From the NCBI GenBank assembly GCA_025330725.1, contig JAIWND010000001.1:1494501-1558500 (forward strand): a DNA stretch of 64,000 bases. The letters are read 5' to 3'. How positions within the stretch are numbered: the stretch's first letter is position 1; each line of letters opens with the position of its first letter. The stretch comes from Chlamydoabsidia padenii. Lineage: Eukaryota > Mucoromycota > Mucoromycetes > Mucorales > Cunninghamellaceae. The translations under genes and the position numbers were made by a program. Below, piece by piece: positions 508-62,960 of the stretch. The notes below the pieces were generated by a model. It had not been told where the DNA came from and ran no database searches. It saw nothing but the letters and a program-made list of their open reading frames with translations.

Positions 508-521
508 GGCGGGATTTGAAA
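508..521. promoter_or_regulatory. GGCGGGATTTGAAA promoter motif (syntaxin gene)
   Basis: The sequence reads GGCGGGATTTGAAA on the + strand, 125-138 nt upstream of the syntaxin ATG. A second, weaker copy (reverse of GACGGGATTTAAA) is at 728-740. Apart from these, the interval 384-967 shows only AT-rich sequence. The motif recurs at the same distance from several other genes in the window; its function is inferred only from that position. Confidence 0.5.
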
Positions 522-967
522 TTATCGACATGGTTTGCATTTTTTCGGCACAGAAACCAGCAAATCATGTCATTCGGCTCAGTAATCCCATCAACTAGCA
601 ATAAACTAGCCACTGGATTATAATTGGACTATGTAGAATGAAATGAGCTCTACTAATCTGAGAATGTTCTTTGGCCAGTCAATGATCATCCTGATTATCA
701 AACTGGAGACAAAGCTCAAGTTCCGATTTTAAATCCCGTCTTACTCTTGCTTATGTTGCAATTGACAGAAAATCCAACTATACACTACTTTTAAGGTCAC
801 ATGAATGCGTGTAGTAAAAAACGATAATCAGTAAAGTTCTTGGCTTTCTTTTTAAAGACAAATATATGATAAAAAAAAAAGAGTTTTATTTGTTTATTGT
901 ATTGTATGTAAGATAATCTATATCTAAGGGGAGAGGGGAAGTCAAGCCAGACACGTTGTTTACTGTT

Positions 968-1699
968 TCACCTCACCATAACCAGCCAGTCTTGATAAAC
1001 ACCAAAAGGGGTAGTCATTTTATTGACAAAAGCGACATGATCTACTTGAAACCATTCAGGTTGTTTCTAATAGGACCAACCATGTCAGATTCTTTTTTAA
1101 GACGGATACCTATTGGAATCAATAAAGGGTGAGTAAATAACAATATATCCATATGTATATATATATATATATATTACCTTGTTACATTGCAGGAGGAGAA
1201 ATAATTAATCTAATTCAATACATATCTACGTATAACAATCAAATGACTTTTGTTCACTGTTCAAGTATAAGGGGGAGGGGACATATCTGTATTTGTGTTT
1301 TTGTTTTACCTTTTTGACAATGGGGTTATAATTTCTAAAGAAGCTAACACATGATGAGGACGTAGATCTTTTTTTTTTATTTAATGCGTTGTACAAGAGC
1401 CTTGTTAAAAGAGTCATCACCCGGGTCTAAGGAAAGGAGTTTGGGAGTGCCTTGATAAGAAGAAGAATAAAAAGTCAGTAGCATCGTCTTTTCCTTCTGT
1501 TTTACTTACCTTTTATTTAAAGTTACCATTGTATTTTCCAATTCTAGATAATGCAAAATCTTGTTTAGATCGTTCACATTAAATGCTGATTGTTTTTTGT
1601 GGGGAAGAGAAAGAAAGAAAGACAAAAGATTCGGGATTCAAATATATCAAATAAGTTTGTGGTATCACCAACTAGCGATTTGATTGGCCGAAAGATATC
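968..1699 (-). CDS. Unrecognised small multi-exon gene (5' end not resolved)
   Basis: I do not recognise this protein. A chain of short exons on the minus strand keeps a single frame: 1699-1669, 1585-1510, 1450-1421, 1334-1310 and 1066-968. It encodes pieces such as DIFRPIKSLV, FNVNDLNKILHYLELENTMV, TPFLRPGNYNPIVKK and finally EWFQVDHVAFVNKMT...QDWLVMVR followed by TGA. All introns are GT-AG and short, and the last exon has a natural amphipathic/aromatic composition. The first exon is unclear: a minus-strand stretch at about 1790-1860 has a good GTAAGG donor and could encode SPETKKTITA in the right phase, but no start codon was found for it. The gene shares its 5' side with the AT-hook gene. 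Existence is moderately likely; function is unknown. Confidence 0.42.
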
Positions 1700-1980
1700 C
1701 TACAAGTAAAAAATGGAAAAGGTAGTATCATCAAGGGTGTAAGGATACGATAGGATTGAAAAAAAAAATATTTAAAACAATTATGTACCTTACAGCAGTT
1801 ATTGTTTTCTTTGTTTCCGGTGAGTGAGGGAGACTTTGAATCTAGTCTGTGTAACCAAAGAAACGGAAGGTTCTGACGATTCTTTGGACATTTTATTTTC
1901 CCATATTTAGTGAAATAGTTCTATTTAATGAACTCTCCTCTTTCTTTCTTTTCTTTTTCCCAATTTTTTTTCTTTTGGCC

Positions 1981-60400: not shown

Positions 60401-60568
60401 ACGAAATCAATCACTGCACTCTCTCCTCCCCCTCCTACATCAAGAGATCAAGATACAATGTCACTTTTGCCCGAACCAGAACAAAATGACTTTTCAAAGT
60501 CTTTTTATGATGATGCTATGTACCACATGACTGACTCCTCTCACCTCCATCCGCAACATGTATCTTAA
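57459..60568 (+). CDS. Boi/Pob1-type polarity scaffold: SH3-SAM-PH plus CH domain
   Basis: Nine exons (57459-57593, 57699-57719, 57797-58103, 58163-58341, 58409-58954, 59012-59215, 59330-59525, 59605-60234, 60312-60568) give 824 aa. An SH3 domain is at about residues 6-62 (VFAIHDFEREHEDEISFLAG, DGWWQGRNQSGQVGLFPMNY). A SAM domain is at about 130-195 (WDVPQVCAWLESVGL, LLDLNMDTLKELGI). A Ser/Thr-rich linker carries a proline motif (PRKAPAPPS). The PH domain is at about 432-529 (EGWLHKQGDKYKTWNKRWF). A calponin-homology domain is at about 654-763 (WTNAQYVTWINQYLPPG, LSSAFRNGDTLIVLLETL). Boi1/2 and Pob1 act with Cdc42, formins and exocyst at growing tips. The added CH domain suggests direct actin contact. 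An intron before the PH second half holds a 53-nt T run and (TG)n. Confidence 0.92.
59261..59313. repeat. Poly(T) tract, 53 nt, followed by (TG)n
   Basis: Lies in the intron 59216-59329 of the Boi-like gene, immediately before a (TG)n stretch and the acceptor TAG. Confidence 0.9.
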
Positions 60569-60877
60569 TAGTAGTAGATAACCTCATTTATTTATCCTTT
60601 ATCCTTTATCTTTTTTTTTTTTTTTATATATAATTCTTATATACTAGTACCGCGCATATCATTATATTATTAGCTTACCTTGTTTGGATTTGCATAGAAA
60701 AGAAAAAAGATATACATATTCATATATATACACCCAATAAAAATCATTCCAATAATGGCTTGCCAGGATCATCTGTTTATCATATACCTATTGACTCACA
60801 ATAAAACACATTACATGCTTGTTTTTTTAAAATGTAGATGGAACAAAGGGAATAGGAGGTGGCAGTTTCATCATTTA
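60569..60877. other. Convergent intergenic region, nothing recognised
   Basis: AT-rich 3' flanks of the Boi-like gene and the small minus-strand gene. Confidence 0.6.
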
Positions 60878-61096
60878 CTACTTGGAAAGACGGTGTTCAC
60901 TCTGCATGATTTTTATCGAAATTAAAATTCCGATTACTATCATTCCACCCAAGCTCAAACTAAAATGTTTGTTCAGCCTAGACCTACCTGAAAAAAGGAT
61001 CTGAGCACTTGACTTTCTTAGTAAATTATGTTGAGGATGCACATCAGAAAACAGATAGTTATGAAATTCATTAAAACCAGATGGTAATAGAGCCAT
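60878..61096 (-). CDS. Small single-pass (tail-anchored) membrane protein
   Basis: A 72-aa ORF from the ATG at 61096. The N-terminal part (MALLPSGFNEFHNYLFSDV) is soluble with one aromatic patch, followed by a basic stretch (RKSSAQILFSGRSRLNKHF). One hydrophobic segment, SLSLGGMIVIGILISIKIM, ends close to the C-terminus, so the topology resembles a tail-anchored protein of the mitochondrial outer membrane or ER. I do not recognise the family. The frame extends 5' to an ATG at 61213, which would add a Lys/Glu leader. The motif TTCAAATCCCGCC lies 41 nt upstream of the chosen start and inside that longer version, which favours the shorter one. Coding status is moderately likely. Confidence 0.5.
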   Translation of the reverse strand: MALLPSGFNEFHNYLFSDVHPQHNLLRKSSAQILFSGRSRLNKHFSLSLGGMIVIGILISIKIMQSEHRLSK

Positions 61097-62960
61097 ACTA
61101 TTAAGCGTAGTGGGCTGACTTAAGGAACTTCTATTGTTCAAATCCCGCCCCTTTTCTTTTCTTTTTGGGGATCGCGGGAATATTTCCTCTTTTTCTTTTT
61201 CTTTTTGATTCATGATTCCTTTATTGACACTTTGACAAGTTGACGTAACAATGGTGGACTTGTAATTACTTCAAACCAATGATGGTTAATGATAGACCAC
61301 TGCCGCTTTAACATTCTTTTGCGTTCTAGGTACTTGACTTGCACGATAATATGGGTAAGTCCCTCAAGACTCAAAATTCCTCTATTCATTGTCATTCACT
61401 AACCCTTTTCTTTTTAAACAGTGTAGGTTAACTTTGTACTTTGTACACAACAATTTTTCAACAGTAACTCCTCTTACCACGGTCATGCAAGTCACCACTC
61501 ATCATTCATGAATGCTTGCCTTTTTACTCTACTTGATTCAACTATAGATCTGCTCAAATAACAATAGGTCATCATGATGGCTGATATGTCTATACTTGTA
61601 AGTTTTTTAAAAAAAAAAGCATACAATGGCAAGTATGAAAATAAGAACTAATTGATGATGCTGTCTTTATTTCATAGATTCGATAAAGGCGCTGGATGGA
61701 CCAACGTATCAACTTGGAAATTGATGTCGTACACGTATAATTTGGGTTGACATTTTCATCGACAACTTCAACAAAGGTAAGAAAGGTAGTGTAATAGGAA
61801 AGACGAAAAGCTAACTTTCTTTTTATATGGTGTGGCGGGATCACTTGGTCAAGATTGGTATTTTGTATTTGGATGGCACCAAAGGTAAAGTATATAACAT
61901 CAAAAGGTGCGACAATGATATTCAGTATATGATTGTACTAACTTGTATCATGTATTTTTCTTTTTGATAGAGCCAAATTCCAATTACGTTGTCTCCTACT
62001 ATGCATATACATGGGATCTTATGATGATCGAGGCATACCTAGTTACATGCATTATTGACCCATTGTCTGAATCCTTGGTAAGTACATTAAACCAATCGAT
62101 GGATGACGATGGTCAATACAATATTAACATATTCTATTAAATATTATAGGAACTCAAAAAGGTCTGTTAATGGAAGCAACAGTATCAATCAGTTGATGGA
62201 TTCGCCAACACTCGAAACAAACGATTAATGGTCTGGACCACGGTATTATCAATTATTATGGAAACTCAACCAGTTGACGAATTTGGAATACAACATCAAT
62301 TAACTTTTAATATGGACGGTGGCTACCATTACAAGAAGTCTTGGCAATACAAATAAGAACTACTTACAAGGACAAAAAAAAAAAGAAGGTGTGACTCAAA
62401 CTAAAGGTAAAGTAAGATTACAAAAAGATATTTAATCTTTTTTTGGCTCTAACTAACCATTTAATATATGTGGTTGACCTGGAAGAAACGGATTTATGTC
62501 ATCTGGATAATCAACAAGTCAAATCGAATAGAACTACTGCAAGGGGGTGGGGTGACTCGGCTATACCTGGATCTCTCAAGTCAATCAAAATGGAAACAAG
62601 GACAATTCATGCAATGACACGGTGTTTGATATATATGACGGTGGAACTGACTTGGTTTGAATTAAAAAACGGATATGTCAGCCATGCTCAGGGTTATTGC
62701 CGACATCATTGGAACTCTTTTAGGTCTCGCCATCATCTTGCTCAAAGGGGTGCCTCATTGTTATGAAGGGTAAAACAAGAATACTGGTTAGGTAATGGGG
62801 TAAGTGACATGAACAAGGAGATGGGAAATCAGGATCAAGAAGACAAGTTACCTTGTTGGATTGTGCTCAAGAAAAGAAAAAAAAAAAGGAGGAAGAGGGG
62901 TAATGCCTCTGACATGGAAGTGATTCGAAGTTACTAACAATCTTTTACTCTTAAATGCTT
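61097..62960. other. Unresolved region with exon-like remnants
   Basis: I could not assemble a gene. Exon-like + strand pieces with GT/AG edges are visible. They include DWYFVFGWHQ near 61853, YYAYTWDLMMIEAYLV near 62000, LMVWTTVLSIIMETQPVDEF near 62230, and DMSAMLRVIADIIGTLLGLA near 62675. The last is a probable membrane segment of the kind that ends many zygomycete surface proteins. Internal stops and frame changes separate them. This may be a decayed membrane-protein gene. A minus-strand 61-aa frame (61395-61210) is also open but unsupported. Confidence 0.35.

Follow-up and report, generated by a model that had tools for sequence, protein, structure and literature searches.

An abundant intergenic motif of Chlamydoabsidia padenii at promoters and distal sites, a predicted general regulatory factor site

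In this study, a 64,000-nt stretch of the Mucorales fungus Chlamydoabsidia padenii (GenBank assembly GCA_025330725.1, contig JAIWND010000001.1, positions 1,494,501 to 1,558,500 of the forward strand), called the window below, was analyzed for a short recurrent motif that joins a CGGG-type half to a TTTGAA-type half. The motif lies before the start codons of unrelated genes and also at intergenic places away from predicted promoters. The sample read was the window plus 250 kb more of contig 1, together 314 kb or 0.9% of the genome. The genome has 34.2 Mb in 95 contigs and encodes the fungal-type domains Zn_clus and Rsc7/Swp82; outside the 314 kb it was covered by whole-genome pattern counts. 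Sites were called with a weight matrix trained on the same 314 kb, with a threshold of at least 13 bits. Gene prediction in the 314 kb gave 144 genes and 487 introns with a median length of 72 nt and GTAAGT/TAG borders. A site 40–170 nt before a predicted ATG was classed as a promoter site, and the other unique intergenic sites were classed as distal. Unique sites were those whose flanks did not recur within the 314 kb (145 of 204; the flanks of the other 59 recurred). The window held 38 sites: 9 promoter sites, 16 unique distal sites, 8 sites with recurring flanks, and 5 sites inside predicted genes. Seven of the 8 recurring-flank sites lay within a 238-bp repeat or on its border. The features of the window, with one further repeat family from the wider sample, are as follows.

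508–523, + strand: promoter motif, 24.4 bits; 126 nt from ATG 383 of a − strand syntaxin-like gene (Syntaxin_2)
725–740, − strand: distal motif, 17.3 bits; 217 bp from site 508
3498–3513, − strand: distal motif, 18.2 bits; GCATGAA partner from 3514
3951–4942, no strand given: 238-bp repeat copies in inverted halves; motifs 3977, 4215, 4451 (−), 4662, 4901 (+)
5749–5764, + strand: promoter motif, 17.0 bits; COX17, ATG 5642, − strand
5954–5961, + strand: partner TGCATGAA; 36 nt from site 5986
5986–6001, − strand: distal motif, 20.8 bits; 237 bp from site 5749 and 200 bp from site 6186
6186–6201, − strand: promoter motif, 20.3 bits; HAD protein (HAD_SAK_1), ATG 6317
6240–6268, + strand: pyrimidine-rich block between motif and HAD gene ATG
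22140–22155, + strand: distal motif, 16.8 bits; next site 26 bp away
22156–22163, + strand: partner TGCATGAA, between sites 22140 and 22166
22166–22181, + strand: distal motif, 21.3 bits
26284–26299, − strand: motif, 19.1 bits; flank about 71% identical to two other places
26621–27054, no strand given: second place of the 238-bp repeat; motifs 26809 and, at the edge, 27049
28187–28202, + strand: promoter motif, 18.6 bits; TCP1/CCT gene (Cpn60_TCP1), ATG 28312
28236–28273, + strand: pyrimidine-rich block before the CCT gene
30807–30822, − strand: promoter motif, 18.8 bits; 3-HAO gene, ATG 30939
35238–35253, − strand: promoter motif, 14.7 bits; 86 nt from the predicted ATG of a gene at 35332 whose tested exon had no Pfam match
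37747–37754, + strand: partner TGCATGAA, immediately before site 37756
37756–37771, + strand: distal motif, 15.9 bits; 153 nt from a predicted stop codon
40678–40693, − strand: promoter motif, 15.9 bits; 77 nt from a helicase-like gene (HA2 domains), ATG 40609, − strand
46441–46456, + strand: promoter motif, 22.7 bits; short gene, ATG 46342, − strand; name NDUFB2 unconfirmed by Pfam
50355–50370, − strand: promoter motif, 22.4 bits; amino-acid transporter (Aa_trans), ATG 50248, − strand
53841–53856, − strand: distal motif, 20.4 bits
57077–57092, + strand: distal motif, 19.3 bits
60919–60934, − strand: weak distal motif, 13.0 bits; 215 bp from site 61134
61134–61149, − strand: distal motif, 19.9 bits
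L009 9560–9800, L017 3947–4320 and L026 7988–8362: second repeat family, about 235 bp

The original prediction, made from the letters of the window, had named 14 places of the motif. All 14 matched the weight matrix at 17.0 to 24.4 bits, with starts within 3 nt of the positions given. The exact 10-mer GGGATTTGAA, said to occur about seven times, was found 7 times (4 and 3 on the two strands). Seven claimed distances to start codons were reproduced to within 1 nt (126, 108, 118, 112, 119, 100, and 108 nt to the predicted ATGs). The gene names given there were backed by Pfam in six cases of seven (syntaxin, COX17, HAD, TCP1 chaperonin, 3-HAO, and amino-acid transporter); NDUFB2 had no Pfam match.

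The abundance of the motif was investigated in the 314 kb and over the genome. The exact 13-mer had 1,177 copies genome-wide (596 and 581 on the two strands), and its reversed control had none. The pattern KCGGGWTTTGAA occurred 4,065 times against 10 for the reversed control, and the looser consensus KCGGRDTTTVAAW 7,525 times against 35. On both strands of the 314 kb, matches with 0, 1, and 2 mismatches numbered 19, 50, and 68; the means of 100 shuffled patterns were 0, 0.31, and 6.4, and the reversed pattern gave 0, 0, and 4. The weight matrix found 204 sites, whereas six sequences simulated with a second-order Markov model gave 7.0 on average. Chance as the origin of the copies was ruled out by these shuffled, reversed, Markov, and genome-wide controls. 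The most over-represented 8-, 9-, and 10-mers of intergenic DNA outside repeat-type sites were pieces of the motif. For this ranking, the surroundings of repeat-type motif sites were cut out, and a word had to contain at least three different letters and occur at least eight times; repeats of other kinds were left unmasked.

The refined consensus was R-K-C-G-G-(G)-(A/G/T)-T-T-T-R-A-A-(A/T)-W. The CGG and the AA were nearly invariant, T and G were about equally common before CGGG, and the fourth base of the TTYRAA core was R in 86%. The two halves were rigidly spaced in the 314 kb: CGGG-N1-TTYRAA occurred 99 times and the N2 form 16 times, and the N0, N3, and N4 forms occurred 1, 1, and 0 times.

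The position of the sites relative to genes, introns, and exons was measured in the 314 kb, not genome-wide. Of the 204 sites, 183 were intergenic, 6 were in introns, and 15 were in predicted exons. The density was 1.77 per kb in intergenic DNA, 0.16 per kb in introns (about 11 times lower), and 0.09 per kb in predicted exons (about 20 times lower). Per available base, the sites peaked 60–140 nt before the predicted ATG, with 8.7 per kb at 100–120 nt. The rate was 0–0.5 per kb within 60 nt of the ATG and 0–2.5 per kb in bins between 140 and 300 nt, and a second peak of 6.0 per kb was found at 340–360 nt. The expectation that the motif would be commoner upstream of start codons than in introns thus held in the 314 kb. 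Among the 101 genes of at least 150 amino acids, 46 had a site 40–170 nt upstream. The 125 unique intergenic sites comprised 49 promoter and 76 distal sites with short genes included; with genes below 80 amino acids left out, the split was 45 promoter and 80 distal sites, and the window sites 508, 5749, and 46441 were counted as distal there because their genes were left out.

The promoter sites were aligned with their genes. The mean distance of the 44 sites lying 50–150 nt before an ATG was 103.5 nt, with a standard deviation of 17.6. Orientation was balanced: 22 sites pointed the same way as the gene and 22 the opposite way, with mean distances of 106.5 and 100.5 nt, and the wider cut of 49 sites gave 26 and 23. 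On the gene side of the motif center, the pyrimidine fraction was 0.45–0.59 from 0 to +41 and then 0.82–0.91 from +48 to +71 in the 44 promoters. A pyrimidine block was present on the gene side of 70% and on the outer side of 16% of 50 promoter sites, against 5.6% of random positions. The median start of the block lay 40 nt from the motif center (interquartile range 33–47, n = 43); because the search ran outward from the motif, a small spread is favored on that side. Distal sites had such a block on either side in 27% of cases (n = 79) against 11% of random positions. No consistent TATA box was seen by eye in the 44 aligned promoters, and neither a TATA nor a CCAAT partner was found at a fixed place. 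As a separate observation, TBP-domain matches were present at G000:C1 466527–467220 and C26 235667–236317, possibly two TBP genes.

The genes with a promoter site were functionally mixed. One exon each was searched from 28 of the 46 genes with a promoter site and from 20 of the 26 genes without one; families were found in 19 of the 28 and 14 of the 20, and by eye no clear split of function appeared between the two groups. Genes with a site included transketolase/dehydrogenase, syntaxin-18, EMG1, FMN oxidoreductase, 2OG oxygenase, COX17, chaperonin, 3-HAO, and tRNA-ligase domain families. Genes without a site included myosin, P5-ATPase, inositol polyphosphate kinase, a MutS homologue, UreF, and P450. 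Together with the 60–140 nt peak and the intergenic restriction, this mixture agreed with the proposal of a general, not pathway-specific, promoter-associated element. For three ribosomal protein genes of the window (22599–23643, 24822–25693, and 46692–47254; Pfam S2/SA, L27e, and L14/L23e), the motif copies nearest to the predicted ATG lay 599, 591, and 297 nt away, and thus none within 170 nt. Ribosomal genes may use another promoter type.

The surroundings of the distal sites were characterized by a second word. Among the 6-mers lying no more than 60 nt from a distal site, GCATGA showed the strongest enrichment, with 31 occurrences against 5.0 expected. With short genes included, 33 of the 76 distal sites had it within 60 nt, as did 2 of the 49 promoter sites (Fisher 4.5e-7); among random intergenic positions the share was 9%. 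Genes below 80 amino acids were left out for the 6-mer enrichment and the random baseline, as they were for the intergenic densities, the AATAAA peak, and the partner strand below. Checks on contig 1 outside the read stretch used partial place lists from which repeat-type variants had been left out. There, with 85 partner words and 128 motif copies listed, 4 of the partner words had a motif copy within 60 nt, where 0.63 were expected (p 0.003). The word TGCATGAAT had 3,365 exact copies genome-wide, often, not always, beside the main motif, against 50 for the reversed control; this ratio overstates the enrichment, since a CpG in the reversed control may make that control rare. In intergenic DNA, the other strand of this word, ATTCATGCA, occurred 14 times against 1.1 by a Markov estimate.

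The distal sites were also placed relative to gene ends. Their density was similar in convergent (0.86 per kb), tandem (0.83 per kb), and divergent (0.95 per kb) intervals. With short genes included, 2 sites lay 0–150 nt after a stop codon against 10.4 expected (0 of 3000), and 19 lay at 150–300 nt against 10.1 expected (p 0.002); both distance limits were chosen after the data had been seen. The enriched interval falls beyond the AATAAA peak at 50–150 nt after the stop. Near gene ends, GCATGA was in the same orientation as the gene 8 times and in the opposite orientation 11 times. The partner therefore has no strand preference there and more probably acts as DNA than as RNA; an RNA-level reading was rejected on these orientations. 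An RNA polymerase III or small nuclear RNA promoter element was rejected as well: no tRNA (ARAGORN, bacterial code) and no Rfam family at gathering score was found in the 314 kb.

The spacing of neighboring sites inside one intergenic interval was investigated after removal of the 59 recurring-flank sites. Gaps of 175–260 bp numbered 15 against 4.9 expected (0 of 2000 re-placements), and gaps of 40–175 bp numbered 2 against 10.0 expected (p 0.0005). There were 5 gaps below 40 bp, none at 260–300 bp against 2.0 expected, and 5 at 300–400 bp against 4.3 expected. When all pairs were counted with the promoter sites fixed in the null, 17 gaps of 175–255 bp were found against 4.7 (0 of 4000) and 2 of 40–175 bp against 9.7 (p 0.0015). 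The 17 neighbor pairs 170–265 bp apart included all four orientation combinations (6, 5, 4, and 2), which argues against a decayed tandem repeat. In the rest of contig 1, the gaps below 700 bp among the listed copies were 77, 218, 220, 243, 360, 370, 399, 490, 517, and 536 bp. A barrier protein bound in linkers would be expected to give gaps that fit one nucleosome or none. Of the evidence on the nucleosome-positioning element suggested earlier, this gap rule alone was favorable, and the support it gives is indirect.

Judged from these sequence statistics, the motif is real and is a dominant regulatory word that occurs in two settings. Its abundance, intergenic restriction, promoter position, pyrimidine block, balanced orientation, distal partner, and gap rule point to a site for one very abundant general regulatory factor, with a role like that of Reb1, Abf1, or Rap1 at promoters and gene boundaries; we give this reading a probability of about 0.6. 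Bound at a promoter in one orientation or the other, the protein would keep the local DNA open; the pyrimidine block, about 40 nt to the gene side of the motif, would contain or immediately precede the start of transcription. Elsewhere in intergenic DNA, the same protein and a second factor at GCATGA(A) would mark linkers and gene ends. Nucleosomes, and possibly polymerase, would be blocked at the marked places. Two bound sites would lie either in one linker, less than 35 bp apart, or far enough apart (about 180–250 bp) for a nucleosome to fit between them.

Several results weigh against a general regulatory factor. No motif was found 40–170 nt before the predicted ATG in 55 of the 101 genes of at least 150 amino acids; 29 of these had their site at another place within 600 nt, and the upstream intergenic stretch of the other 26 held none within 600 nt. 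Inside predicted exons or introns lay 21 of the 204 sites, and 43 of the 76 distal sites had no GCATGA within 60 nt. The gene starts were predicted by a self-written hidden Markov gene finder that had been trained on the same 314 kb. Beyond the first neighbor, gaps were not significantly phased at further multiples, and no 10-bp AA/TT/TA rhythm was found near the sites. The GC content had its maximum at the site and its minimum about 100 bp away. Since nucleosomes usually favor GC, this would put the nucleosome on the motif rather than beside it; composition alone cannot decide nucleosome placement.

A nucleosome ruler in intergenic DNA was also considered, in which a dedicated, abundant linker-binding protein would have its sites arranged for neighboring bound copies to occupy one linker or flank a nucleosome, and GCATGAA would switch the site from promoter anchor to gene boundary. 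We regard such a ruler as a tentative possibility.

Two proteins could instead read one word, a promoter factor at the proximal sites and an origin, terminator, or enhancer factor at the distal GCATGA composites. The partner was nearly confined to distal sites, and these were similarly dense in convergent, tandem, and divergent intervals and enriched 150–300 nt after stops, as a separate distal factor would allow. The base preferences of the promoter and distal classes were nearly identical, however, as is expected for one binder. Two proteins are unlikely.

The original prediction favored a core promoter element. In the narrow sense, this would be a directional element that recruits the initiation machinery directly, as a local substitute for the TATA box. 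The tight distance to the ATG, the regular spacing to the pyrimidine block, and the lack by eye of a consistent TATA box in the 44 promoters agree with it. The 22:22 orientation with near-equal mean distances does not, nor does the pyrimidine block at only 27% of 79 distal sites. Moreover, 76 of the 125 unique intergenic sites were away from predicted promoters, 33 of them with the partner. The narrow claim was thus not upheld, and we consider a directional core element improbable.

A composite E2F and cell cycle genes homology region (CHR) element of the DREAM/MuvB type was a further candidate, since the original prediction had noted a likeness to E2F sites and to the cell cycle-dependent element (CDE) with its CHR. 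Like those animal elements, the motif sets a CGGG-type half beside TTTGAA, and six loci with E2F/DP domains (L029–L034) were found in the genome. The 3' half also fits the LIN54 consensus TTYRAA, as given in the accessible text of PMC4974476. E2F_TDP was completely lost in the ancestor of Dikarya, according to the part of PMC10406608 available. In the available text of PMC5716687, a spacer of four nucleotides separates the CDE from the CHR, whereas the halves here are one to two bases apart, and T or G precedes CGGG. In the 314 kb, GGCGG-N4-TTYGAA occurred 0 times and GGCGG-N2-TTYGAA 16 times. The E2F site TTTSSCGC was not enriched over its reversed control in the 314 kb (TTTSGCGC 7 against 7, TTTSCCGC 11 against 16), and neither were TTTCCCGC (9 against 9) and KCGGGAAA (15 against 18). 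The form GCGGGAAAWTTGAA, which we devised ourselves, had one copy in the genome. Genome searches found no TCR/LIN54, DIRP/LIN9, or RB_B domain, and a plant CXC domain gave no match for a LIN54-type CXC either; these searches had no positive control, so that absence is not established. Among the families of genes with a site, no obvious cell-cycle regulator was present. The likeness broke down on half spacing and on E2F-site enrichment, and a composite of this type is very unlikely.

The possibility that a repeat or mobile element had spread the copies, most of which would then be non-functional, was examined on the repeats that carry the motif. The 238-bp dispersed repeat (window 3951–4942, with inverted halves, and 26621–27054) had at least 160 matches in the genome, some of them partial, and no Rfam match in the window; the motif was present in 14 of 15 examined copies. 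In the second family, of about 235 bp, it was present in 3 of 5 examined copies, with a core identity of 0.948 against 0.926, which was not exceptional. In the 238-bp family, the motif core was 0.974 identical against an average of 0.907, within the top 6.5% of windows. Repeats inflate the raw motif counts and do not explain the pattern. Despite the 59 of 204 sites with recurring flanks, spread by repeats alone was rejected and a mainly non-functional origin is very unlikely, given that the 145 sites without a recurring flank, 49 promoter sites among them, still kept the gap rule.

The promoter module was compared with known fungal systems. Pyrimidine-rich initiation regions are known in fungal promoters, and a pyrimidine stretch before the ATG was likewise found here. 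In C. padenii, as a difference from those regions, the block starts at the median distance and range from the motif given above. N6-methyladenine (6mA) patterns of early-branching fungi offer another comparison: Phycomyces methylates VATB (PMC11258239, available text), and ApT is often contained in the motif. ApT is not invariant in it, however, and that part of the source describes no such motif.

If the proposed general regulatory factor exists, the motif would be a direct handle on a predicted master chromatin-organizing protein of a fungus outside Dikarya. The two-word grammar and the spacing rule would yield testable predictions of promoters, gene ends, and nucleosome positions from the sequence alone. 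For the genome studied, the motif would serve as a practical rule for finding promoters. No general regulatory factor site in a fungus outside Dikarya was among the results listed in searches of the open-access literature, which speaks weakly for novelty.

Budding yeast is the organism in which general regulatory factors have been studied in depth, and there the Reb1 site has the sequence TTACCCG. The Reb1 site proper was rejected for the 314 kb, with CGGGTAA occurring 16 times against 21 for the reversed control. By analogy, Reb1 is comparable in role and not in sequence. Reb1 is found at promoters and downstream of polyadenylation sites, and roles in nucleosome-depleted regions and in roadblock termination have been proposed for it, according to the accessible parts of PMC9481977 and PMC7618759. 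The motif resembles the sites of yeast Reb1, Abf1, and Rap1 in its abundance, its unrelated target genes, its places near promoters and perhaps near gene ends, and its use of both orientations. Unlike those of the yeast factors, many distal sites here have a partner word, and the gaps between sites follow a one-nucleosome rule. These two properties, together with the sequence of the motif, seem to be new.

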